Below, piece by piece: positions 1,351 to 13,979 of a stretch of 55,033 nucleotides of DNA. Location of the stretch: the NCBI GenBank assembly GCA_030428385.1, contig JAUIDY010000029.1, positions 1 through 55,033 of the forward strand. The letters are read 5' to 3'. The notes under the pieces were generated by a model, which searched no databases, was not told the DNA's origin, and worked only from the letters and a program-made list of their open reading frames with translations. Position numbers and translations under genes: made by a program. Source of the stretch: Rhodothermia bacterium (GTDB lineage Bacteria > Bacteroidota > Rhodothermia > Rhodothermales > JAAAOL01). Position 1 is the first letter of the stretch. Each line of letters begins with the position of its first letter.

Positions 1351-2757
1351 TTATTCGCCAATCCGGGCGTCGAGCCGGCTCGGGGCGGGTGTGAGTGAGG
1401 CGCGGAGGCGTTCGGCCTCGGCCAGCAGCGCCGCCACAACGTCGGGGTGGCGGTCGGCGATGTTGAATTGCTCGCTGGGGTCATGGTCGAGGTGGTACAA
1501 TTCTGGCGTGTCTAGCACCTGCGGTCCTTGATCGGTTTCATACGCGCCCCGGGTGATAAAATGCGCTTTCCACGGCCCTTGCCGCAGCGCAAAAAGCTGC
1601 GTGCCTCGGTAGAAAGGGACGGTGTTCCGTACCGCATCGGTTTCACCGCGTAGCAGTGGCAACAGGCTGGTGCCGTCATACGGGCGATCTTGGGGCAACG
1701 TTGCCTCGGCAAGGGCGGCAGCCGTGGGGAGCAGGTCCATCGTGGTGGCGAGGGCGTCGGTTACGGTGCCGGGGGCGATGGTGCCGGGCCACCACGCCAG
1801 CGCGGGTACCCGCATCCCACCGTCCCACGTGGTGCCCTTGCCATCGCGCAGCAACCCTGACGACCCGCCCTGTGTCTGGTACGTCAGCCACGGGCCGTTG
1901 TCGCTGGTGAAGACGACCAGGGTGTTTTCGGCCAGGCCCAACGTGTGCAAGGTTTCCATGACCTGGCCCACGCTCCAATCGATTTCTTCCACCACATCGC
2001 CATAGGGGCCACGCGGGCTTGTCTGAAAGTCCTCCGAGGCGAACAGCGGGACGTGCGGCAAGCTGTAGGGCAGATACACAAAAAACGGCTGGTCCTGGTG
2101 CGCCTCGATGAACTGCACGGCCTCCTGCGTGTAGCGGCGGGTGATGGTGTGCTGCTCAGCGGGGCGCTCCACGATCTCTTCGTTGCGCATCAGCGGTACG
2201 TTCCACGTCTCGATCTTTGGGTCGATCCAGATGTTGTTGCCGGGAGGATTGGCGATGTGCGTGTTGTCGCCGACGCGGTCCATGTCGTTGCTGTACGGGA
2301 TGCCGAAGTACAGGTCGAAGCCGTGGTTGGTGGGGAGAAATTCGGGCAGGTGCCCCAAGTGCCACTTGCCAATGGCGGCGGTGGCATAGCCGCGCTCGCG
2401 TAGCATCTCGGCGATGGTGTGTTCTTCCGTGGGTAGGCCCAGCTTGGAGTCGGGAAACAGCACCCCGCGTCGGTCCGAGGACATGCCGCTGCGCTGCGGG
2501 AGTCGCCCAGTGAGCAGTGCCGCTCGGCTGGGTGTGCAAATCGACGCGCCCACATAGAACTGGGTGAACTTCATGCCTTCCGCTGCCATCCGGTCGAGGT
2601 GTGGCGTCCGGATCGTCGGGTGGCCATACACGCCGAGATCACCGTAGCCGAGGTCGTCGGCGAAGAGGATGACGAGGTTAGGTGGGCTGGATTGGGCGGC
2701 GCTTGAGAGCGGATGGGCGAAAACGGCAAGGGCGAGAAGAAGGAGCCAGCGGGTCAT
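1351..2757 (-). CDS. S1-family sulfatase (arylsulfatase-like), secreted
   Basis: This 468-residue enzyme of the alkaline phosphatase/sulfatase superfamily hydrolyses a sulfate ester. I chose the ATG at 2757 because it puts a signal peptide (MTRWLLLLALAVFAHPLSSAAQ) at the N-terminus; the frame is open upstream to 2850. Residues 74-78 read CTPSR, the C-x-P-S-R motif whose Cys is converted to formylglycine. LFADDLGYGD (31-40) supplies calcium-ligand aspartates, GKWHLGH carries the active-site Lys and His, and FTSDNGPW supplies later ligands. A formylglycine-generating enzyme is needed but is not in the window. The substrate is unknown. The L-fucose cluster 4 kb away suggests a sulfated fucan or other sulfated glycan, but no glycosidase is adjacent, so this is inference. 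Confidence 0.92.
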   Translation of the reverse strand: MTRWLLLLALAVFAHPLSSAAQSSPPNLVILFADDLGYGDLGVYGHPTIRTPHLDRMAAEGMKFTQFYVGASICTPSRAALLTGRLPQRSGMSSDRRGVLFPDSKLGLPTEEHTIAEMLRERGYATAAIGKWHLGHLPEFLPTNHGFDLYFGIPYSNDMDRVGDNTHIANPPGNNIWIDPKIETWNVPLMRNEEIVERPAEQHTITRRYTQEAVQFIEAHQDQPFFVYLPYSLPHVPLFASEDFQTSPRGPYGDVVEEIDWSVGQVMETLHTLGLAENTLVVFTSDNGPWLTYQTQGGSSGLLRDGKGTTWDGGMRVPALAWWPGTIAPGTVTDALATTMDLLPTAAALAEATLPQDRPYDGTSLLPLLRGETDAVRNTVPFYRGTQLFALRQGPWKAHFITRGAYETDQGPQVLDTPELYHLDHDPSEQFNIADRHPDVVAALLAEAERLRASLTPAPSRLDARIGE

Positions 2758-3450
2758 GAGGCGGTGGGTCGATGAGCAGAAGTCACTGTAAAATAGGATT
2801 TTCTGCATGAACAATGCGGGGGATTCTTGGGCGAGATGACCATGTTCCAAGGCTCAGCTTTAGAATAAGCACGCCGAACGATGTCCCGTTATGGACCACG
2901 TTTAGAAGGGCGCGAGGGTAAATGGAAGAAGGGCTTCAACGGAGCACCTACGTCTCATCCTTGGCAAGCGCGAAGGGTTGAAGCCGACCTTTATTCCGGT
3001 ATGAATGGCTGAAAACAACAACCATGCAGGCTGTCACAAGCTTCACCGGTGCTGCATTTCCTTGATGCCCCGTTGAGGCAAGGGCTTTTGCCAAAGGAAC
3101 GGATTGTTTTTTCAGGGACGAAAGAACCAACGTCCTGGCACCTCCGAAACGTGCGAACCCCGATCCGTACGCCACCTATTCCGTACTCAACGGGCGTGAG
3201 GCAATGAGTGATTAGAAATGGGCAATGCGTAATTATTCATCCTTCATTACTCATTGCTAATCGTCACCGGCGTTTGGTCCATTCCGCGGTGAAAGGACGA
3301 AAAACCAACAACCATGCAGATTGAGAAGACCTTCTTAACGAGCACCCCCGTTGCACGTCCGTAGTCTCTCACTGCCTGTTAAATGAGCACGACCACCATG
3401 TAGGGCAGCCCTGCTACAAGCGAAGGAAGAAAGAAGCGAGCCAGAAGAAC
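2758..3450. other. Non-coding stretch between sulfatase and hydrolase
   Basis: About 690 bases with no convincing gene. The only open frame of note (2948-3175, minus, 75 codons) has no recognisable domain. The word CTGCATGGTTGTTG (minus strand) occurs twice, near 3016-3029 and 3306-3319, in otherwise different surroundings. An imperfect palindromic patch lies at 3201-3257. Confidence 0.5.
3201..3257. repeat. Imperfect inverted repeat, ATTACTCATTGC type
   Basis: GCAATGAGT at 3201-3209 pairs with ACTCATTGC at 3249-3257. Between the arms are further degenerate copies of the same word (GGCAATGCG, TTCATTACT). No poly-T follows, so a terminator is unlikely. It reads as a short iterated intergenic repeat. 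Confidence 0.5.
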
Positions 3451-4416
3451 TTATTGTTGGTGTATCCACTCGGCGATGTTGATGAGCACATCCTCGGAAA
3501 CGGTTTCGGTGCCTGCGCGAAACAGCATATGTGTCAGGTTGGGGTAGGTGGTGAAGGACACCTGCGCCGAGTGCCTTGCGACGTTTTCCCACAGCGCCAC
3601 GTTTTTGGAAAGCACGGCTCCCGGAAAAACCTCGTCGCGGAGCCCTTGCACGATGAGGGTGGGTTTGTCGGCGGCGAGGACCAACGCGCCTGCGTTTTCA
3701 CTGAAGGTGATCCATTCGCGCCAGTAGGTCTCGCCTGCGCCAAGAATCTGTCCGCCGGGTGGAAACTGGTTGGTGCGAAGCAGCGCAAAGGCGGCTTCTA
3801 CCTGCTGGATGAGGTCGGTGCCGTTGGCCGGGTTAGCCCTTAATTGCTCGACGACAAGGGAATCCACGGCGAACGCCACCGAGGCCACGACGACTATGCC
3901 GCGGACTCCCGCCTCACGCTGGGCCGCGACGGGCACGAGGTTGCCGCCCTCGCTGTGGCCGACGAGAAAAACACGTTCCGGGTCAACCTCCGGGCGCGTC
4001 TTCAGGTACTCGAAGGCGGAAAGGAGGTCGTCGATTTGGTCTTCTTGCGACAGCGTGAGGGGATCGACGCTTGCGTGGGTCAAGAACCGCTTGTCGTAGC
4101 GCAGCACCACGAGGTTTTGTTGGGTCAGCCGTTCGGCCCAGCGGCGGTAAAACGGTGGATGCTGGTTCGGGTCGGGCACGTAAAACCCATCACGGTCAAC
4201 CGGGCCGGAGCCATTAACGATGACCACGGCGGCGGTTGGGACATCGGTGTCAGGAAGCGAAAGTGTGCCTTCGAGAAGGAGTGGGCCGCTGTAAAATTGC
4301 ACCTGCTGGGTCTGAACGGTGGGGTCAGGACGCGGCGGGGCCTGGGAGTCGCAGGCGGCGACGCAAAGCAGCAAGCCAGCCAGCCCAAGCCAGCACGAAG
4401 GGGAAAAGGAAGGCAT
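3451..4416 (-). CDS. Alpha/beta-hydrolase lipoprotein (S9/dienelactone-hydrolase type)
   Basis: A 321-residue protein with a lipoprotein signal: a hydrophobic stretch then VAAC, with lipidated Cys22. The mature part is an alpha/beta-hydrolase fold. VNGSGPVDRDG (67-77) forms the oxyanion-hole region. The nucleophile elbow is GHSEGG with Ser155, the acid is Asp261 in QGLRDEVFPG, and the base is His296 in YPNLTHMLF. The layout matches prolyl-oligopeptidase-like or acyl-thioester hydrolase-like serine hydrolases of Bacteroidota. The substrate cannot be deduced. It is read in the same direction as the STAND protein gene upstream, but about 200 bases separate them, so an operon is not evident. Confidence 0.85.
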   Translation of the reverse strand: MPSFSPSCWLGLAGLLLCVAACDSQAPPRPDPTVQTQQVQFYSGPLLLEGTLSLPDTDVPTAAVVIVNGSGPVDRDGFYVPDPNQHPPFYRRWAERLTQQNLVVLRYDKRFLTHASVDPLTLSQEDQIDDLLSAFEYLKTRPEVDPERVFLVGHSEGGNLVPVAAQREAGVRGIVVVASVAFAVDSLVVEQLRANPANGTDLIQQVEAAFALLRTNQFPPGGQILGAGETYWREWITFSENAGALVLAADKPTLIVQGLRDEVFPGAVLSKNVALWENVARHSAQVSFTTYPNLTHMLFRAGTETVSEDVLINIAEWIHQQ

Positions 4417-4620: not shown

Positions 4621-6786
4621 TCACCCACCCAACTCGCGGTGCCAGAGCAGGGCGGTGAGTTCTTCCACGCCAAGCTTGAGGTGGCGGCGAAAGGTGCTGT
4701 AGGGCAGGTCGAGCAATTCGGCGGCCTGTTCGTGCGACGGAGCCGGGCGGAAGTAGGCGCGGTCGAGGGCACGGTGGCCTTTTGTCAGGCGCGGCGAACT
4801 GTCGAGCAGCTTCCAGGTAGCGCTTAAGACGTCGCACAGCGTTTTAATGCGGTCAGCGTCGTCGGCCTTTTTCGAAAGCTGGTCGGCGACGATGCGGGAG
4901 CGCAGCAGCGGGTTGTTCGCCAGCGTGTGCGGGCGGGCGTAGGCGCGCAGGGCATCGTGGACGGCCTCGGCGAAGGCTTCCTGGCTCAGGACGAGAACGG
5001 GCGGGGCCTTAGGCTTAGGTGGCGGCTTGGTGCTGGAACTGGTCTCGCGCTCGGCGAGGACATCCAGCCACACCACGGGCGGGGTCTTGCGCCAGTCGTG
5101 CCCGAAGACGCCGTAGGTCTGGTCGCCCACCTTAAATCCGGCCTCTGGCACCAGCGGCAAATCGGCGTACGCAAAGAGCGGGGCCCACAGCTCGGCCTGG
5201 GCGCAGGCATACAACGAAAAGGCGAGGTCGGGCGTGGTGAGGTAATACCGGACGGCCTGGATAAAAAGCAGGCTCTGAATGGCGGAGATGTCCTGATACG
5301 TGTCGGCCGCCATCCAGTAGCGGAAGAACAGCAGCCGCTCCCCGGGACGCAGCGGAGCGTGTGCTTGCAGATACGTCCATGCGGCTTGTGTGGCGGGATC
5401 CTGCTTGATTTCAGCGTCGTGATCCGCTGTTAGCAGAAGATACATCGTGAAGCCGCCGATGGTGCCGTCGCTCTTTTCCACCACCAGCACGCCTTCGGGC
5501 TGCTCGGCCATCCAGTACCGGGCGAGGTCCGCAGAGGCGGGTCCTTCGTGGCGTTTCACCATCTGCACCAACGTCTCGTGATCGGCGTCGGCGTCCATCG
5601 GGCGGAGCGTAACACCGGTTTTAAGGCCGCCCTGACTGCGGAGCTGGTTAAAAAAGGGCTGAACGATGGGGTTGTCGCGGTGCAGGTAGATATAGTCGGT
5701 CAGGAGGCGCTGTTGGGTGGATCCGGTCGTTTCGGTGACCTGCTTTTTGTAGAACGCACGGGCGCGGGTGTGGAGCGTGCGGTGCCAGGTCGGGTTGCGC
5801 CATTGCAGGTCGGCGCTTAGTACTTCGCGAGCGAGGTCGTGCGGAAAAAGGCCCTGATTTCCGGAGTCGATAAACGAGAGCCCGCGCAGCCACTCGAATA
5901 GTGCGTGCGCGTCGTCCAGGTCCATCATGGCACCCAGCAGCGACTCGGTGGTGTAGCGGACGAGGGCACAGGCTTCTAACGCCGTCCGGTGGGCAGGACT
6001 CGGTACTTTCATCACAAACCGGTCCAGCAGCGTCTTGATAATATCGGGGTCGGACGACAGATCCAGCGGCTGGTCGGGGCGCTGCTCGGCGACGGCGGCG
6101 ATAAGGGCAAGCGCCAGCGGGTTGCCGTGGGTGAGTTGGAACAGCGCCCGGTGCTGGTCGTCGGGGATGCCCGACTGCCGGAAGTAGGCGAGGCTGGCAT
6201 CCGGGCTGAGGTTGCGCAGCGAAATCGTGCGGAGCAGCGGTTGCCATCCCGGATCGGTGCGCCACACGGCCGAGAGCGGGTTGCGTTCCGCCACCACCAC
6301 CAGCACTTCGTCCGACAACTGCGGCAGAAACGTCGTAAACAGCCACCGCTCCAACGAAGCCAGGTGCTCGAACGTGTCGATCAGCAGCACGCGCCGCTGG
6401 GTCGTGGTCGCCAGCAGGTCGGGCACCGAGGCTTCGGGCGGGACGGCCAGCGCCTCGCGCAGGGCGGCGATGAACGCATGCGGCGTCGCCTCAATGGTGC
6501 GGGCGTCGAGGTAGGTCGCGGGTATCGTGCGCTGCAAGGCCCGGTAGCGAAACTCGTGCAGCAGCGTCGTCTTGCCCAGCCCGCCCGGTCCGTCCACATG
6601 GATCAGGAAAAACGGCAGCGTGTTCGCTGTCAGCGCCGACTCAAAAAGCGCACACGGGGCTTCGCGACCGACAAAACGACGGTGGACGGCTTCCAACAGA
6701 CGATCAGCAAGCCGCGAGGGAGCATTCACGAGATTCGACACGAGCAATGAGCAGGGCGGAAGGCAACCAAAACCTAAGGTCGCCAC
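4621..6786 (-). CDS. STAND-type ATPase with internal GNAT-like domain and C-terminal HTH
   Basis: A 721-residue protein, probably a signal-responsive regulator. Residues 36-45 (RRFVGREAPC) are the pre-domain motif of STAND/NB-ARC ATPases. Walker A is GPGGLGKTT at 66-74 and Walker B is RVLLIDTFEHL at 132-142. Helical regions follow to about 390. Residues 393-580 look like a GNAT acetyltransferase fold: LRPMDADADHETLV, then VLVVEKSDGTIGGFTMYL. A proline-rich linker (588-597) leads to a terminal region whose end, HEQAAELLDLPYSTFRRHL (685-703), looks like a helix-turn-helix. The exact start is uncertain; GTG codons at residues 16 and 20 are alternatives. It diverges from the fucose genes 300 bases away, so control of that pathway is possible but unproven. 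Confidence 0.75.
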   Translation of the reverse strand: MATLGFGCLPPCSLLVSNLVNAPSRLADRLLEAVHRRFVGREAPCALFESALTANTLPFFLIHVDGPGGLGKTTLLHEFRYRALQRTIPATYLDARTIEATPHAFIAALREALAVPPEASVPDLLATTTQRRVLLIDTFEHLASLERWLFTTFLPQLSDEVLVVVAERNPLSAVWRTDPGWQPLLRTISLRNLSPDASLAYFRQSGIPDDQHRALFQLTHGNPLALALIAAVAEQRPDQPLDLSSDPDIIKTLLDRFVMKVPSPAHRTALEACALVRYTTESLLGAMMDLDDAHALFEWLRGLSFIDSGNQGLFPHDLAREVLSADLQWRNPTWHRTLHTRARAFYKKQVTETTGSTQQRLLTDYIYLHRDNPIVQPFFNQLRSQGGLKTGVTLRPMDADADHETLVQMVKRHEGPASADLARYWMAEQPEGVLVVEKSDGTIGGFTMYLLLTADHDAEIKQDPATQAAWTYLQAHAPLRPGERLLFFRYWMAADTYQDISAIQSLLFIQAVRYYLTTPDLAFSLYACAQAELWAPLFAYADLPLVPEAGFKVGDQTYGVFGHDWRKTPPVVWLDVLAERETSSSTKPPPKPKAPPVLVLSQEAFAEAVHDALRAYARPHTLANNPLLRSRIVADQLSKKADDADRIKTLCDVLSATWKLLDSSPRLTKGHRALDRAYFRPAPSHEQAAELLDLPYSTFRRHLKLGVEELTALLWHRELGG

Positions 6787-7089
6787 GGGTTCCGTTCAAA
6801 CACACGCTCACTTTGGTGTCAAGATCGTTTCATCAAGCGCTCAAAGACGGACGAGACATACCCCCTTCGTTTTTTTAAACGTCATTTTCACGAAGGCGGG
6901 AATGACAAAATGAACGGCAGGGATCTGAATTATGAGAACTTTCCCTTACGAGCCGCACGAGGGCAGTATTGTAGGCGCTTTGTGTGGATCGCCGGTTGCC
7001 CTCTTTCTCATGGACTTGTTTGACCGAGTGGATAGACCTTCAATCGTCGATCTGCTATCTTGGCGCACCCCGCACCAATCGCTGTGCCT
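6787..7089. promoter_or_regulatory. Divergent intergenic region, STAND gene / fuconate dehydratase
   Basis: About 300 bases between divergently read genes, so both promoters should lie here. I could not pick a convincing -35/-10 pair at normal spacing. TTGACC (7020-7025) and TATCTT (7056-7061) are 30 bases apart. No clear operator palindrome was found. Confidence 0.3.
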
Positions 7090-8388
7090 ATGACCGCCCG
7101 CATCATCGGAATCCAGACGTACGACATCCGCTTTCCCACTAGCACGGCGCTGGACGGGTCGGATGCGATGAATGCCGCGCCGGATTACTCGGCGGCGTAT
7201 GTAATCGTGCAGACGGATCACCCAAATGGCCTTGAAGGGCACGGGTTGACGTTCACCATTGGACGGGGCAATGAGTTGTGCGTGCAGGCCATCGAGGCGC
7301 TCTCATATCTCGTCGTCGGGCAGCCGTTGGAAATGCTGTTTGCCGACATGGGCGGGTTCTGGCGGCGGCTGACAAGCGACAGCCAACTGCGGTGGGTCGG
7401 CCCCGAAAAAGGCGTCATTCACCTCGCCACGGCGGCGCTCGTCAACGCGATATGGGACCTCTTCGCCAAAGCCGAACGCAAACCGCTGTGGCAACTCGTC
7501 GCCGACATGACGCCGGAGGCATTCGTGCGCTGCATCGATTTTCGGTACATCACCGACGCGCTTACGCCGGACGAAGCCCTGGCGCTGCTGAAAAAAAACG
7601 AGGCGACGAAGGCTGAGCGCATCGCCCACCTGAAAAAACATGGCTATCCGGCCTACACAACCTCGGCGGGGTGGCTGGGTTATTCGGATGAAAAGGTCAG
7701 GCGGTTGGCCCGTGCTGCCAAAACGGAAGGATGGAGACACGTAAAAATAAAAGTCGGGCGCGACCTCGACGACGACCAGCGGCGGGCGGCCATCATCCGC
7801 GAGGAGATTGGCAATGACGCTTATCTGATGATGGACGCCAACCAGATCTGGGAGGTGGAAGAAGCCATCGCTAACATGGCAGAACTAGCGAAATACAACC
7901 CCTGGTGGATTGAGGAGCCGACGAGCCCGGACGACATTCTCGGGCACAAGGCCATCGCTGAGGCGGTGCATCCGATCAAGGTGGCGACGGGCGAGCACTG
8001 CCACAACCGGATCATGTTTAAGCAGTTCATCACGTCCGGCGCGCTGGATATTTGTCAGATCGATAGCTGTCGGCTGGGCGGGGTGAATGAGGTGCTGGCG
8101 GTGTATCTGATGGCGGCGAAGTACGGCGTGCCGGTGTGCCCGCACGCGGGCGGCGTGGGGCTGTGCGAATACGTGCAGCACCTCGCCATGATTGACTATA
8201 TTTGCATCAGCGGCAGCCTCGAAGACCGGGTGGTGGAGTATGTGGATCACCTGCATGAGCATTTTTTGGATCCGGTGACGGTCCGCAACGGCGCGTATCT
8301 TCCACCTACGATGCCTGGTTATAGTATCGAGATGAAACGGGAGAGTAGGGCGCGGTATACGTGGCCGGAGGGGGCGGCGTGGCGATGA
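7090..8388 (+). CDS. fucD: L-fuconate dehydratase
   Basis: This enolase-superfamily enzyme dehydrates L-fuconate to 2-keto-3-deoxy-L-fuconate. The ATG at 7090 gives 432 residues, close to the characterised Xanthomonas enzyme; the frame is open upstream to 7060. Family-specific stretches include RFPTSTALDGSDAMNAAPDY near the N-terminus and SQLRWVGPEKG. Catalytic elements are KIKVGRD (the K-x-K pair), MMDANQ and WWIEEPTSPDD (metal ligands), GEHCHNR, and PHAGGVGLCEY with the catalytic His. The C-terminal EYVDHLHEHFLDPV is also characteristic. It is the first gene of the plus-strand fucose cluster. Confidence 0.95.
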   Translation: MTARIIGIQTYDIRFPTSTALDGSDAMNAAPDYSAAYVIVQTDHPNGLEGHGLTFTIGRGNELCVQAIEALSYLVVGQPLEMLFADMGGFWRRLTSDSQLRWVGPEKGVIHLATAALVNAIWDLFAKAERKPLWQLVADMTPEAFVRCIDFRYITDALTPDEALALLKKNEATKAERIAHLKKHGYPAYTTSAGWLGYSDEKVRRLARAAKTEGWRHVKIKVGRDLDDDQRRAAIIREEIGNDAYLMMDANQIWEVEEAIANMAELAKYNPWWIEEPTSPDDILGHKAIAEAVHPIKVATGEHCHNRIMFKQFITSGALDICQIDSCRLGGVNEVLAVYLMAAKYGVPVCPHAGGVGLCEYVQHLAMIDYICISGSLEDRVVEYVDHLHEHFLDPVTVRNGAYLPPTMPGYSIEMKRESRARYTWPEGAAWR

Positions 8389-8403
8389 TGGCGTCAGCCT
8401 GCT

Positions 8404-8606
8404 TTTTCTACGTCCTTTTGGCTTGATCCCCCGGATCGAGTCCGGGGCAGGCGCCAGGACCAAAAGATCAAGGCGGTACCAAAATCGGCTAACCCTGCGC
8501 TACGGAGCGGAAAAACTTCAAACTCGCTGCGCTCAGACAGGAAGTTTTTCTGTTTCGCTCGCTACGCTCCGGGTTCGAGACGCCGATTTTGCTAAGGCCG
8601 ATTGTC
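8404..8606. repeat. Composite intergenic palindromic repeat
   Basis: The element is built from nested inverted repeats. CTTTTGGCTTGATC (from about 8414) faces CAAAAGATCAAG (about 8460-8471). AAAATCGGC (about 8481) faces GCCGATTTT (about 8581), and the words ACTCGCTGCGCTCAG and CGCTCGCTACGCTCC lie between. From memory, elements with these words recur between genes in Bacteroidota genomes. No coding capacity is apparent. Confidence 0.6.
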
Positions 8607-8684
8607 CGGAATAACTATCTTCTTGATTCTCCACACGATAGGTCCAGCAAGGTGTTTATTACTTGGCTCCGCCGATAGAGGAGC

Positions 8685-8705
8685 GTTCACGTTTTACGTT
8701 TCACG
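8685..8705 (+). repeat. Iterated CACGTTT motif upstream of SDR gene
   Basis: GTTCACGTTTTACGTTTCAC is seen 34 bases upstream of the dehydrogenase ATG. A longer version of the same string occurs at 9694-9721, just upstream of the next fucose gene. It may be a shared operator or leader element, or a simple dispersed repeat. Confidence 0.45.
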
Positions 8706-8739
8706 ATACTTTGAGGCACACAGTCAGCATCTACACACC

Positions 8740-9519
8740 ATGAACCCTTTTTCATTACACAACAAAACCGCCCTCATCACCGGCGGCGGAAGCGGCATCG
8801 GCGAGGCCATCACGCGGCGTTTTGCGGCCAGCGGGGCGGCGGTGCATGTGCTCGACGTAAACCGAGAGGCAGCCGAAGCGGTGGTGCAGGAGATTACGGA
8901 TTTGGGCCAGCAAGCCGTTTTCCATGACTGCAACATCGCCCAGCACGCCGAGACGGTGGCGGTGATCGACGCCATCGCCACGCAGGGCTCGGTGGATATT
9001 CTGGTCAACAACGCGGGCATTGCGCACGTCGGCAACGTGGAAAACACCACCGAAGCAGACCTTGACCGGCTGTATCAGGTCAACATCAAGGGCGTGTACA
9101 ACTGCCTGTTTGGGGTGCTGCCCCACATGAAGCAGCAGGGCGGCGGCTGCATCCTCAACGTGGCGTCGGTGGCGGCGATGGTGGCGGTGGCGGATCGGTT
9201 TGCGTATTCGATGACCAAAGGCGCGGTGCTGACGATGACGTATTCGGTGGCGAAGGACTACCTCGCGCACAACATCCGCTGCAACAGCCTATCTCCAGCT
9301 CGCATCCACACGCCGTTTGTGGATGGTTTTCTGGCGAAGAACTACCCCGGTCAGGAAGCGGAGATGTTCGCCAAACTCGCGGGCACCCAACCCATCGGGC
9401 GCATGGGGACGCCAGACGAAGTCGCCCACCTCGCGCTGTTCCTTTGCTCAGACGAAGCGGGGTTCATCACCGGCACCAACTACCCCATCGACGGCGGCTT
9501 TATCACGCTCAATGCGTGA
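8740..9519 (+). CDS. SDR oxidoreductase, probable 2-keto-3-deoxy-L-fuconate dehydrogenase
   Basis: A classical short-chain dehydrogenase of 259 residues. I chose the ATG at 8740 because the cofactor motif TGGGSGIG then sits at residues 14-21, as usual; the frame is open 46 codons further upstream without SDR features. NNAG is at 90-93, and the catalytic residues are Ser143, Tyr156 and Lys160 (YSMTK). The C-terminal stretch NSLSPARIHTPFVDGF resembles dehydrogenases of the L-fuconate pathway. The likely reaction oxidises 2-keto-3-deoxy-L-fuconate to the 2,4-diketo acid with NAD+. The function rests mainly on the neighbours: dehydratase before, hydrolase after. Confidence 0.85.
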   Translation: MNPFSLHNKTALITGGGSGIGEAITRRFAASGAAVHVLDVNREAAEAVVQEITDLGQQAVFHDCNIAQHAETVAVIDAIATQGSVDILVNNAGIAHVGNVENTTEADLDRLYQVNIKGVYNCLFGVLPHMKQQGGGCILNVASVAAMVAVADRFAYSMTKGAVLTMTYSVAKDYLAHNIRCNSLSPARIHTPFVDGFLAKNYPGQEAEMFAKLAGTQPIGRMGTPDEVAHLALFLCSDEAGFITGTNYPIDGGFITLNA

Positions 9520-9725
9520 GTGAAACGTGAAGACGTACCTGAAACCTGAAACGTGAGGGTGCGGATTCGTTCGTAATCCGTTACTTTCTCCACCGTGTTG
9601 CAAGCCTGTTCAGAAGGGCACAGAACGGCAGGCAGAAAAGGCCATCCAGAAAGACACCATTTTTTAAGTTTCAGCAACCTTCGCTGGAGACAAGTTCACG
9701 TTTCACGCTTTACGTTTCACGCCTC
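9520..9725. repeat. Inverted-repeat-bounded spacer with CACGTTT iterations
   Basis: GTGAAACGTGAA at 9520-9531, overlapping the upstream stop codon region, is nearly complementary to TTCACGTTTCAC at 9695-9706. The block at 9694-9721 iterates TTCACGTTT, TTTACGTTTCACG and ends 4 bases before the next ATG, where a ribosome binding site would be expected. No gene lies in the spacer. Confidence 0.45.
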
Positions 9726-10583
9726 ATGAAACTCATTCGCTTCGGCCAACCCGGCCGCGAAAAACCAGGAATTGTTGATGCCCAGGGCGTCATGCGCGAT
9801 GTCAGCGCCTTCACGCCCGACTTCGACGAAGACTTTTTTGAACAGGACGGCCTGACCGGGCTCCGAAGCTGGCTGCGGGTCCACGATGCCGCTGCGCCCG
9901 CCGTTGATATCAGCGAGCGGCTGGGGTCGCCGGTGGCGCGTCCGTCGAAGATTATCTGCGTAGGGCTGAACTATGCCAAACACGCAGCCGAAGGTGGCAT
10001 GGCGATCCCGACCGAGCCGATTCTGTTTTTTAAAGCGCCCTCGGCGGTGTGTGGGCCGTACGACGACATCATCATTCCCAAAAACAGCGAAAAGACGGAC
10101 TGGGAGGTAGAACTGGCGCTGGTCATCGGGAAGCGGGCATCATATGTGGACGAAGCCGAGGCGATGGATTACGTGGCGGGCTACGTGCTGCACAACGATG
10201 TCAGCGAGCGCACTTTTCAGTTGGAGCTCAGCGGACAGTGGGTGAAAGGCAAAAGCGCCGACACGTTTGCGCCGCTCGGTCCATACCTCGTCACCACCGA
10301 CGAAATCGACGACCCGCACAACCTGGCACTGTGGCTGAAGGTCAATGGCGAGACGCTGCAATCGTCCACCACCGACGACCTGATTTTTAACCTCCCGTTT
10401 CTGGTGAGCTACATCAGCCAGTTCATGACGCTGTGCCCCGGCGACGTGATCTCGACCGGGACGCCGTCGGGCGTGGGGCTGGGCCTCAAGCCGCCGCGTT
10501 ATCTCAAGCCCGGCGACGTCGTAGAACTTGGCATCGACGGCCTCGGCGTGGCGAAGCAGAAAGTGCGAGCGTGGCAGCCATGA
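9726..10583 (+). CDS. FAH-family 2,4-diketo-3-deoxy-L-fuconate hydrolase
   Basis: A 285-residue member of the fumarylacetoacetate hydrolase family. It should split 2,4-diketo-3-deoxy-L-fuconate into pyruvate and L-lactate, the last step of the non-phosphorylating fucose route. The N-terminal domain (about 1-70) is followed by the catalytic fold starting at KIICVGLNYAKHA (75-87). Metal-binding acidic residues lie in TDWEVELALVIG (124-135), and other hallmarks are HNDVSERTFQ, GKSADTFAPLGPYL and PGDVISTGTPSGVG. Its stop overlaps the start of the fuconolactonase gene (ATGA), so the two are probably translationally coupled. Confidence 0.92.
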   Translation: MKLIRFGQPGREKPGIVDAQGVMRDVSAFTPDFDEDFFEQDGLTGLRSWLRVHDAAAPAVDISERLGSPVARPSKIICVGLNYAKHAAEGGMAIPTEPILFFKAPSAVCGPYDDIIIPKNSEKTDWEVELALVIGKRASYVDEAEAMDYVAGYVLHNDVSERTFQLELSGQWVKGKSADTFAPLGPYLVTTDEIDDPHNLALWLKVNGETLQSSTTDDLIFNLPFLVSYISQFMTLCPGDVISTGTPSGVGLGLKPPRYLKPGDVVELGIDGLGVAKQKVRAWQP

Positions 10584-11410
10584 TGCGGATTGATGCGCAT
10601 CAGCATTTCTGGTCGTACGATCCGGCGCGGCACGCATGGATCGACGACGCGATGGCGGGGCTGCGGCGTGACTTTTTGCCTGCCGACCTCGCGCCCATCC
10701 TTCAACGGAATCTAGTAGACGGCACGGTGCTGGTGCAGGTGGACCAGACCGAAGAAGAAACCCGGTGGATGCTCGATCTGGCCGCGCAGCATCCGTTTGT
10801 TAAAGGGGTCGTCGGGTGGATTGATTTGCGGGCACCAGATGTCGCGGAGCGGCTGGCCCATTTTTCGGAGTTCGAGGTGCTCAAAGGCTTTCGCCACATC
10901 GTGCAGGCCGAGCGTGACGACCTGTTTCTGCTCGACCCGGCGTTCCAGCGCGGCATCCGGTGGCTCACCGCGTTTGGCTTTACGTACGATATCCTGATTT
11001 ATCCGCACCAGCTTCCGGCAGCGATCCGGCTTGTGGAGGCCCACCCGGACCAGCATTTCGTGCTCGATCACATCGCCAAGCCGCCCATCAAGGCACAGGC
11101 GATGGAGCCGTGGGCGTCGCTCCTCCGCACGCTGGCGCAGCACAACAACGTGTGGTGCAAGGTCTCCGGCCTCATCACTGAAGCCGACTACACGGCATGG
11201 ACGCCGTCGCACATTTTTCCGTACCTCGATGTCGTTTTTGCGGCTTTTAATATAAATCGGCTTATGTTTGGCTCCGACTGGCCTGTGTGCCGCTGCGCCG
11301 GGACCTACGACCAGGTGCTTTCGCTGGTGGAAAACTACACGACAGGTCTAAGCGCCGAGGCGCGCCACAAGCTGTTCGGTGGCAATGCCGTCGCTTTTTA
11401 TGGACTTTGA
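10580..11410 (+). CDS. Amidohydrolase-2 family L-fuconolactonase
   Basis: A 276-residue amidohydrolase, probably opening L-fucono-lactone to L-fuconate, the step between L-fucose dehydrogenase and FucD. The chosen ATG at 10580 overlaps the stop of the FAH gene by 4 bases; a second ATG follows at 10583. The barrel opens with DAHQHFW (HxH at residues 7 and 9). LDHIAKPPIK carries the next His, and MFGSDWPVC carries the active-site Asp. KGVVGWIDLRAP and LKGFRHIVQAE are typical of fuconolactonase and rhamnonolactonase-like members. The fucose assignment comes from context; the fold itself is clear. Confidence 0.9.
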   Translation: MMRIDAHQHFWSYDPARHAWIDDAMAGLRRDFLPADLAPILQRNLVDGTVLVQVDQTEEETRWMLDLAAQHPFVKGVVGWIDLRAPDVAERLAHFSEFEVLKGFRHIVQAERDDLFLLDPAFQRGIRWLTAFGFTYDILIYPHQLPAAIRLVEAHPDQHFVLDHIAKPPIKAQAMEPWASLLRTLAQHNNVWCKVSGLITEADYTAWTPSHIFPYLDVVFAAFNINRLMFGSDWPVCRCAGTYDQVLSLVENYTTGLSAEARHKLFGGNAVAFYGL

Positions 11411-11723
11411 GGCTGAGGAATACCTATTTCCAGCATGTCATCGCGAGGAGCGCTAGCGACGTGGCGATCTCACCCCGTTTGTGGTGTTCTTTCCTGTCGG
11501 GGTGAGATCACCACAGGATCTGCGATCCTTCGTGATGGCGTGATAAAAAGCGATTTTACGAAAACGCTTACTGTATACCATACACGTTCATTCGTGTCAT
11601 CCCGAATACCGCATCGCGGCGTGAGGGATCTGCCACGTTTTCGTATTGCACAACCTGAACATGGGAGATCTCTCCTCCTTACAGTCGTCGAGATGACACG
11701 GGAATAAACGCTCCTTCACGCTC
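11411..11723. repeat. Two adjacent palindromic intergenic repeats
   Basis: The first has perfect 11-base arms, GATCTCACCCC (11466-11476) and GGGGTGAGATC (11499-11509), flanked by GTCATCGCGAGGAGCG. The second is bounded by CGTGTCAT (11593-11600) and ATGACACG (11693-11700), with CGTGAGGGATC inside. Both look like dispersed GTCATCCCGA-type elements. No gene is present in this 313-base gap. Confidence 0.6.
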
Positions 11724-12566
11724 ATGGACTTAGGACTCACCAACAAGGTCGTACTCATCAGCGGCGGGGCGCGGGGCATCGGCGAGGGTATCGTTCGCGG
11801 TGTTGCAGCCGAAGGCGGCATTCCCGTGATTGTGGATCGGAAGCGGGAGACGGCGGAACGTTTAGTGGACGATCTGGCAAATCAAGATCGGCCCGCGCTG
11901 TTTGTGCACACCGAACTCAGCGACCCGGCGCAATGCCAGCAGGCTGTGGAGGAATCGCTATCTCACTTCGGTCGGCTTGATGCGCTGGTCAACAACGCGG
12001 GCACCAACGATGGGGTGGGTTTGGCGAGCGGGTCGCCGGAGACGTTTGTCGCGTCCTTCCACAAGAACCTACACCACTATTATTACCTCGCCCATTTTGC
12101 GCTCGACGCGCTCAAGCAATCCCGCGGGGCGGTTGTGAATATCAGTTCGAAGACAGCGGTGACGGGACAGGGCAATACCTCGGCGTATGCGGCGGCGAAA
12201 GGGGCGCAACTGGCGCTCACCCGCGAGTGGGCCGTCGAACTGCTGCCTTTTGGCATCCGCGTCAATGCCATTGTTCCCGCCGAGGTGATGACACCGATGT
12301 ATGAAGAATGGCTGCAAAGCTTCCCCGACGCCGAAGCAAAACGCCGTGCCATCGTGCAAAACATCCCGCTCGGGCAGCGGATGACGACGAAGGAAGAAAT
12401 CGCCGCGATGGTCCTGTTTCTGATCTCATCGCACGCCGCGCACATCACCGGGCAGTGCATCCACGTAGACGGCGGCTATGTGCATCTGGACCGAGCGCTC
12501 GTGTGGGATGAAGGAAGAGAGATGGGGGAGGAGGGAGACAGGAGAGATAGCCATGCCGATACATAA
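11724..12566 (+). CDS. SDR-family L-fucose dehydrogenase
   Basis: A 280-residue short-chain dehydrogenase, proposed to oxidise L-fucose to L-fucono-lactone with NAD(P)+ as the first pathway step. The cofactor motif SGGARGIG is at residues 13-20, NNAG at 90-93, and the active site has Ser141/Ser142 with Tyr155 and Lys159 (YAAAK). HKNLHHYYYLAHFAL and VPAEVMTPMYEEWL are typical of the L-fucose dehydrogenase branch of SDRs. About 20 charged residues (DEGREMGEEGDRRDSH) extend past the usual SDR end and may be non-functional read-through. It lies between the lactonase and permease genes. Confidence 0.87.
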   Translation: MDLGLTNKVVLISGGARGIGEGIVRGVAAEGGIPVIVDRKRETAERLVDDLANQDRPALFVHTELSDPAQCQQAVEESLSHFGRLDALVNNAGTNDGVGLASGSPETFVASFHKNLHHYYYLAHFALDALKQSRGAVVNISSKTAVTGQGNTSAYAAAKGAQLALTREWAVELLPFGIRVNAIVPAEVMTPMYEEWLQSFPDAEAKRRAIVQNIPLGQRMTTKEEIAAMVLFLISSHAAHITGQCIHVDGGYVHLDRALVWDEGREMGEEGDRRDSHADT

Positions 12567-12581
12567 GCCACCCACCCGTAA

Positions 12582-12601
12582 AGACGCGCCGTGGCGCGTC
12601 T
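12582..12601. repeat. Perfect short palindrome between fucose dehydrogenase and fucP
   Basis: AGACGCGCC and GGCGCGTCT form a 9-bp stem with a 2-base loop. It is followed by CCCCGCCCG, not a U-tract, so it is either a dispersed palindrome or an RNA-stability hairpin rather than a classical terminator. Confidence 0.55.
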
Positions 12602-12692
12602 CCCCGCCCGATACTGCATGACGCATGGGCAGCAAGACACCGACGCAAGCAAAGCGAGCACCTGATCTGATAGACCTACCACCCCAAACCAC

Positions 12693-13979
12693 ATGGAAAC
12701 CACCACCCGAACCAAGCTCGTCCCGCCCGGCCTGATGCTGCCGTTTATCCTCATCACCAGCCTGTTTGCGTGGTGGGGGCTGGCGAACAACATGACGGAC
12801 ACGCTGCTCGCGGCGTTTAAGCGCATCATGAGCATGTCCGACACGCAGACGTCGCTTATCCAGGTGGCATTTTACGGCTCATATTTTTGCCTCGCGCTCC
12901 CGGCGGCGATTTTTATCAAGCGGTTCACCTACAAGTCGGGCGTGCTGCTGGGGCTGGGGCTGTTTATCAGCGGGGCGCTGCTGTTTTACCCGGCGAGCCA
13001 GACGATGGTGTACGGCCATTTCCTGGCCGCGCTGTTTATTCTGGCGGGCGGCCTTTCCATTCTGGAGACGGCGGCGAATCCTTACATCATCGCGATGGGG
13101 CCTGCCGAGACGGGTGTGCGGCGGCTGAACCTCGCGCAGTCGTTTAACCCCATCGGCTCGATTACGGGCGTGGTGCTGAGCCAACTGTTTATCCTCGCCA
13201 ACCTCGACGCCGCCAGTGCCGAAGAACGCGCCGCGATGTCGGCGGCGCAGTTGGAGGCGTTGCAGGCGCAAGAATTAGGTGCCGTGATGGGGCCGTACGT
13301 GGGCGTGGCGTTTGTGCTGTTGCTGCTGTGGATCGCCATCGCCGTGGTGAAGATGCCGAAGGCGTCCGACGAAGGCCCCGCGCTGGAGATTGGGGCGACG
13401 CTGAAGCGGCTGCTGGCGAACAAGAACTACGTGTGGGGTGTGGTCGCGCAGTTTTTCTACGTCGGCGCGCAGATCGGCGTGTGGTCGTTTACGATCCGGT
13501 ACGTGATGGCGGAACTCGGCCTCAACGAAGAAGGCGCGTCGCAGTATTACCTCGCCGCGCTGGTGCTGTTTGCGATCTCGCGGTTTGTGTGCACCTTCCT
13601 GATGCGGTTTGTGACGCCGAAGAAGCTGCTTACCATCCTGTCGGTGCTGGCGATGGGGCTCACCATTGTGGTGATCCTCGTTGGCGGCATGGTAGGCGTC
13701 GTCGCGCTGGTGGCGATTTCGGCGTGTATGTCGCTGATCTTCCCGACGATTTTCGGTCTTGCGGTGCAAGGCTTGGGCGCGGATACCAAACTCGGCGGCT
13801 CCGGCCTCATCATGGCGATTCTCGGCGGGGCGGTGCTCACCTATATCCAGGCGCTTGTCTCCGACGCGACGGGCAGCATCAGCATTGCCTACGTGGTGCC
13901 GCTAGCGTGCTTCGCCCTCATCGCCTATTACGCCGCCTTCGTCCGCCACGCGCCGCCCGACAGCGCCGAGGTTGCATAG
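12693..13979 (+). CDS. fucP: L-fucose permease (MFS, FHS family)
   Basis: A 428-residue, roughly 12-helix major facilitator of the fucose-galactose-glucose:H+ symporter family, located in the cytoplasmic membrane. Diagnostic stretches are FAWWGLANNMTDTLLAAFKR at the N-terminus, GSYFCLALPAAIFIKRFTYK, LETAANPYIIAMGPAETGVR, and LNLAQSFNPIGSITG. The central loop (about 195-245) is hydrophilic, and the C-terminal half contains SLIFPTIFGLAVQGLG. It supplies free L-fucose to the enzymes encoded upstream. Confidence 0.95.
   Translation: METTTRTKLVPPGLMLPFILITSLFAWWGLANNMTDTLLAAFKRIMSMSDTQTSLIQVAFYGSYFCLALPAAIFIKRFTYKSGVLLGLGLFISGALLFYPASQTMVYGHFLAALFILAGGLSILETAANPYIIAMGPAETGVRRLNLAQSFNPIGSITGVVLSQLFILANLDAASAEERAAMSAAQLEALQAQELGAVMGPYVGVAFVLLLLWIAIAVVKMPKASDEGPALEIGATLKRLLANKNYVWGVVAQFFYVGAQIGVWSFTIRYVMAELGLNEEGASQYYLAALVLFAISRFVCTFLMRFVTPKKLLTILSVLAMGLTIVVILVGGMVGVVALVAISACMSLIFPTIFGLAVQGLGADTKLGGSGLIMAILGGAVLTYIQALVSDATGSISIAYVVPLACFALIAYYAAFVRHAPPDSAEVA

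Follow-up and report, generated by a model that had tools for sequence, protein, structure and literature searches.

A STAND ATPase with a GNAT-fold domain and a C-terminal HTH: a predicted activator family with an operator of 11-bp direct repeats

The locus, the regulator and its relatives

The window analysed here, a stretch of 55,033 nucleotides from a Rhodothermia bacterium (contig JAUIDY010000029.1 of assembly GCA_030428385.1), carries a gene for a large STAND-type protein that diverges from a fucose oxidation cluster, in the orientation given by the original prediction for this DNA. The features discussed below are the following.

4621..6729, minus strand: STAND-GNAT-HTH regulator gene, probable extent, with the GTG start at 6729; the reading frame can be opened to the GTG at 6786
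4633..4752, minus strand: C-terminal HTH (residues 679-718), the most conserved part of the family, with the recognition helix STxRRxL
5032..5616, minus strand: GNAT-fold domain (residues 391-585), from structure model and fold search; pyrophosphate loop apparently QxxS
5752..6675, minus strand: nucleotide-binding oligomerisation domain plus winged-helix part (residues 38-345), from motifs and fold matches to MalT (8bob) and PH0952 (6mfv)
6776..6781, minus strand: -10-like hexamer GACCTT, at +12 to +17 from the array, the offset found in relatives
6793..6843, minus strand: degenerate five-unit array TGAGCG/TGAAAC/TGACAC/TGAGCG/TGAACG, spacing 11, 11, 11 and 12, before the regulator's own gene; candidate autoregulatory site
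7090..13979, plus strand: fucose oxidation cluster (dehydratase, SDR, FAH, fuconolactonase, FucDH, FucP); divergent neighbour, judged to lie outside the regulon

The open reading frame at 4621-6786 (minus strand) is intact and encodes 721 amino acids; since the N-termini of its relatives fall at about residue 20-25, the GTG at 6729 is probably the true start. The fucose cluster is genuine, with FucDH and FucP above the NCBIfam cut-offs. Downstream of the regulator, on the same strand, lie genes for a sulfatase and an alpha/beta hydrolase (1351-4416), with no canonical operator site in between.

Full-length relatives with 41-51% identity were found in Chloroflexota, Cyanobacteria, Poribacteria, an Actinobacteria bin and the window's own class, and plasmid-borne relatives in Nostoc (43%) and Rhodococcus (38%); in public databases they are mostly annotated as 'ATP-binding protein'. 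Within the window's class the regulator is present in 26 of 245 genomes, and the window's genome holds a second copy, a paralogue with 49% identity on contig C111. The copies in six genomes (G158, G160, G177, G180, G184 and G185) look split or fragmentary, through frameshifts, decay or assembly errors. The only above-cut-off NB-ARC match in the window's genome (G000, C90:123364-123735, locus L001) belongs to a different STAND protein, with an open frame of 869 amino acids.

The architecture of an ATPase switch, a GNAT-fold sensing domain and an HTH in one regulator, as originally predicted, was borne out. The proposed NB-ARC-like ATPase is supported by a P-loop (hhGxxGxGKT) and a Walker B motif (hhhhD), which read GPGGLGKTT (residues 66-74) and VLLIDTFE (residues 133-140) and in which G66, G69, G71, K72 and D137 are conserved at 100% in 49 homologues, as well as by a GxP motif (residues 221-223; G221 and P223 at 98-100%) and an MHD-like motif (residues 315-317; H316 98%, D317 92%, together with R320 at 100%) in the same set. 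In addition, MalT (8bob) was the top structural match in a Foldseek search with the whole model. The Pfam matches of the window protein to AAA_22, NACHT, nSTAND5 and NB-ARC were all below cut-off, and 10 to 15 of 16 homologues matched AAA_16, NACHT or NB-ARC at E<=0.1 (best E 8e-9). The ATPase is of the STAND/NB-ARC type, for which multimerisation controlled by ADP and ATP is predicted.

The predicted C-terminal HTH was located at residues 679-718, where conservation reaches 2.99 bits per column versus about 2.4 elsewhere in the protein, and weakly resembles sigma region 4 and Psq. A Pfam search of the protein found neither the N-terminal OmpR-type DNA-binding and BTA (SARP) domains of SARP/AfsR proteins nor the GerE or TPR matches of the LAL/MalT group; the regulator would, by analogy, work like AfsR, yet it is placed outside the SARP/AfsR family.

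A shared operator and its position in the promoter

Conservation in the protein peaks at the HTH, which predicted a single DNA site across phyla. Direct repeats of TGAGCA were seen in upstream sequences and then scanned for systematically, giving a 40-bp operator with the consensus TGAGCA-N5-TGAGCA-N3-TTTGRTCTGG-N3-GTGAGCA, whose repeats are spaced 11, 11 and 12 bp apart and lie on one helix face. Of 50 fetched loci, 29 have the operator beside the regulator gene; in most of them it separates the regulator from the adjoining gene and points to the latter. A matrix trained on other phyla only gave 17 matches above 14 bits in the window's class versus 0.2 expected, and, conversely, a matrix trained on the window's class only gave 13 such matches in other phyla versus none in shuffles.

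The element also travels with the protein family. When a sequence-only covariance model of the element was run over 240 genomes of the class, a site was found in 14, of which 12 carry the regulator; the two site-bearing genomes without a detected copy (G156 and G191) are incomplete bins (81% and 62%). Among seven class genomes whose sites had stayed out of the model, five carry the regulator (p=2e-4). Likewise, 16 of 17 homologue-bearing genomes or plasmids from other phyla have sites at E<=0.1, and in all four genomes from which the model had drawn no site (G546, G547, G551 and G552) sites reach E<1e-4, with predicted targets including DUF4331 and SnoaL genes and a NicO-like gene. In principle, a different protein that accompanies the regulator family could be the one that binds the element.

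A -10 hexamer of the type TAnnnT, which played no part in finding the sites or in training on them, occupies precisely positions +12 to +17 downstream of the element, the operator ending 11 bp before it, and an A at +13 combined with a T at +17 is present in 23 of 31 sites, whereas no other offset gives more than 4. With the hexamer set at -12 to -7, repeat three falls at about -41 to -34 and repeat four at about -29 to -24. In Streptomyces coelicolor, the box bound by AfsR extends from -40 to -19 and contains two 11-bp repeats, the upstream one overlapping the -35 element (PMC10936776). The two systems thus have in common direct repeats of 11-bp period that overlap the -35 region immediately ahead of the -10 element (PMC10936776), and the present element corresponds to the AfsR-type arrangement with two repeats added farther upstream. 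Placed in this way over the -35 region, with its end 11 bp short of the -10 hexamer, the operator would allow the bound protein to recruit RNA polymerase in the same way as AfsR. Repressors bind over the -35 region too, and a protein occupying the array could block RNA polymerase until released by a ligand or ATP; such a repressor is unlikely, however, given that the -10 hexamer is held at a fixed 11 bp from the array, as expected for activator-dependent promoters like that of afsS, and that known HTH-bearing STAND regulators (MalT, AfsR) are activators. We consider it likely that the protein is instead a STAND activator gated by a ligand and arrayed along the 11-bp repeats over the -35 region.

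In the window itself, the fucose cluster included, neither the matrix scan nor the covariance model found a canonical operator. The five-unit array before the regulator's own gene escaped both the PWM and the covariance model and reached 4.8 bits with model R1; its chain score was attained by 0 of 60 shuffled windows, a significance that is partly post hoc because the score was set after several arrays, including this one, had been viewed by eye. Since it fails both matrix and model, the array is treated as a candidate autoregulatory site only, and it is retained as such because of its spacing, its -10 offset and its position. Inverted repeats sought in 6730-7095 were short and unconvincing. 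Elsewhere in the window's genome canonical sites are present at the paralogue on C111, at a SnoaL-DUF4331-TPR-TonB operon on C131 and at a gene pair for an ECF sigma factor and a kinase on C58. The C131 operon (L061:2222-8949) has no adjoining regulator gene. On C58 (L105:8478-11767), the operator precedes the ECF sigma gene, which is followed by a gene for a Ser/Thr kinase with TPR repeats, an arrangement that suggests a regulatory cascade; a secreted protein of the SdrD type, with 2577 amino acids, is encoded divergently from this pair. The regulator of the window probably exerts weak control over its own gene and works in trans, and the C111 paralogue may serve the trans sites of the genome. 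With no canonical site near the window copy and its own array scoring near zero, the targets of this copy are candidates only.

Predicted targets and the fucose cluster

Among the genes that follow the operator are those for DUF4331/TPR proteins, SnoaL proteins, Ferritin_2 proteins and TonB receptors, among others, the regulator often being encoded elsewhere. Predicted targets that carry a site and do not adjoin a regulator gene include DUF4331 genes (G000, G162, G164, G546 and G553), SnoaL or SnoaL-like genes (G158, G547 and G551), TonB receptors (G161 and G159), a ferritin-like gene (G550), a NicO-like gene (G546), a CMD gene (G191) and the ECF sigma gene of the window's genome, some of these identities having been assigned by blastp to known members or by inspection of the sequence rather than through Pfam. 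The largest predicted regulon was seen in an Anaerolineae genome (G547, locus L008) with 13 candidate sites at E<=0.1, where one predicted target resembles, by eye, a stand-alone GNAT protein. ECF41 sigma factors carry a fused SnoaL-like regulatory domain and are encoded beside genes of the carboxymuconolactone decarboxylase type, and similar target types (SnoaL, CMD) are seen here; this resemblance is only thematic. The present family is a different class of protein and has a different promoter element.

DUF4331 adjoins the regulator in 13 of the 50 fetched loci. A TPR protein usually accompanies it, and SnoaL, a TonB receptor or transporters of the NicO or TauE type often do; in other loci of this set SnoaL or Ferritin_2 genes take the adjoining position. 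Moreover, regulator and DUF4331 co-occur in the 240 class genomes (13/14, p=1e-13), and the DUF4331 link is scattered across the regulator tree, with at least six changes. A literature search on DUF4331 found nothing.

The divergent position of the regulator, with no other regulator seen beside the fucose cluster, had suggested a local regulator that senses fucose breakdown through the GNAT domain, and one relative (G165, L047:6503-10320) does lie directly upstream of fucP. In that locus, however, the operator is on the opposite side, before a gene for a secreted CHRD-domain protein, and the window and G165 copies are not sisters in the regulator tree, in which the window copy groups with the DUF4331-linked copies of L041 and L050. 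G165 is also the only one of 20 other genomes with the regulator near fucP, the remaining fetched fucP loci being without it, and a scan of 20 fucP loci with the matrix gave 1 match, of 14.5 bits, versus 0.2 expected. The originally predicted link to fucose genes did not hold: in 240 genomes of the class the regulator does not co-occur with fucP (3/40 versus 26/240, p=0.59), no family operator occurs in the fucose cluster of the window, and no recurrent fucose cluster was met in the 50 fetched loci. On the co-occurrence result and the absence of sites this improbable reading was rejected, and the fucose cluster is most likely a bystander.

The GNAT-fold domain and a proposed mechanism

The acetyltransferase-like middle domain, originally placed at about residues 393-580, was confirmed as a GNAT fold by structure prediction and fold search. 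An AF2 model of residues 387-585 shows GNAT topology (pLDDT 88.5, pTM 0.83), and a fold search with the domain model returned 228 PDB matches at E<=1e-3, the best 50 all being GNAT proteins, with serotonin NAT (1cjw, TMt 0.69) as one example. The fold was identified by structure alone, as searches with Pfam, NCBIfam and PDB sequences did not recognise the domain. Although residues 391-585 are thus folded like the GNAT acetyltransferases serotonin NAT, PA3270 and NAA60, they have no detectable sequence similarity to solved GNATs, and a glycine of the acetyl-CoA pyrophosphate loop (Q/RxxGxG/A) is apparently replaced by serine across the family, giving QxxS (Q498 to S501) in a loop that was placed by the secondary structure of the model rather than by residue-level superposition. 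The clear GNAT fold and its many invariant residues, such as R489, W491, D564 and R566, would also suit an active acetyltransferase with a protein or a small molecule as its substrate and with the ATPase and HTH as accessories; the apparent loss of the canonical acetyl-CoA loop and the lack of a sequence match to any solved GNAT speak against this, and we regard it as improbable. For the same two reasons we favour a sensory role for the GNAT-fold domain over that of a standard enzyme.

The control by ligand and ATP, the DNA binding and the activation that we propose would proceed as follows. In the resting state, the GNAT-fold domain would hold the ATPase core closed, until binding of a small ligand, perhaps acyl-CoA or a related compound, releases the core, which would then take up ATP and multimerise. 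The multimer would set one HTH on each TGAGCA-type repeat of the 40-bp operator and, once bound at the promoter, would contact and recruit RNA polymerase in the manner of AfsR. Among known activators, MalT relies on a TPR-like domain to sense maltotriose, and its HTH is of the LuxR type, in contrast to the window protein with its GNAT-fold domain and its HTH of a different kind. The order of a STAND switch, a sensor and a C-terminal HTH is shared with MalT and the large ATP-binding LuxR (LAL) activators (PMC4381067, PMC6468293). With AfsR, in which ATP lifts the inhibition exerted by the NOD and TPR domains, the protein shares a STAND-type nucleotide-binding domain coupled to DNA binding (PMC10936776). 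Whereas AfsR (SARP-NOD-TPR) has an N-terminal SARP domain, a TPR sensor and two repeats, the window family has a C-terminal HTH, a putative GNAT-fold sensor and at least four TGAGCA-type repeats.

An anti-phage STAND effector of the Avs-like type with the GNAT domain as toxic effector, which the STAND fold, a weak structural similarity to Avs3 and the copies on mobilisable plasmids might bring to mind, was rejected as highly improbable, since no match was found among 50,697 phage records and no PADLOC family at a meaningful E-value, the neighbouring genes are not defence genes, and a conserved HTH with a matching operator exists.

On balance, we lean towards an undescribed, multi-phylum family of STAND activators in which a degenerate GNAT domain would act as ligand sensor and an AfsR-like oligomer on at least four 11-bp repeats would control a conserved module of secreted proteins (DUF4331-TPR-TonB/NicO, SnoaL and TAT ferritin-like). 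A family of regulators labelled only 'ATP-binding protein' in the databases thereby gains a predicted operator, promoter geometry and regulon, with a predicted reach across the window's class, Chloroflexota, Cyanobacteria, Poribacteria and Actinomycetota, and DUF4331, SnoaL-like and TAT ferritin-like proteins are joined in one predicted regulon. Next to AfsR, the family would provide another, independent example of a STAND activator that uses 11-bp repeats, and with it the way in which STAND multimers engage promoters becomes testable.
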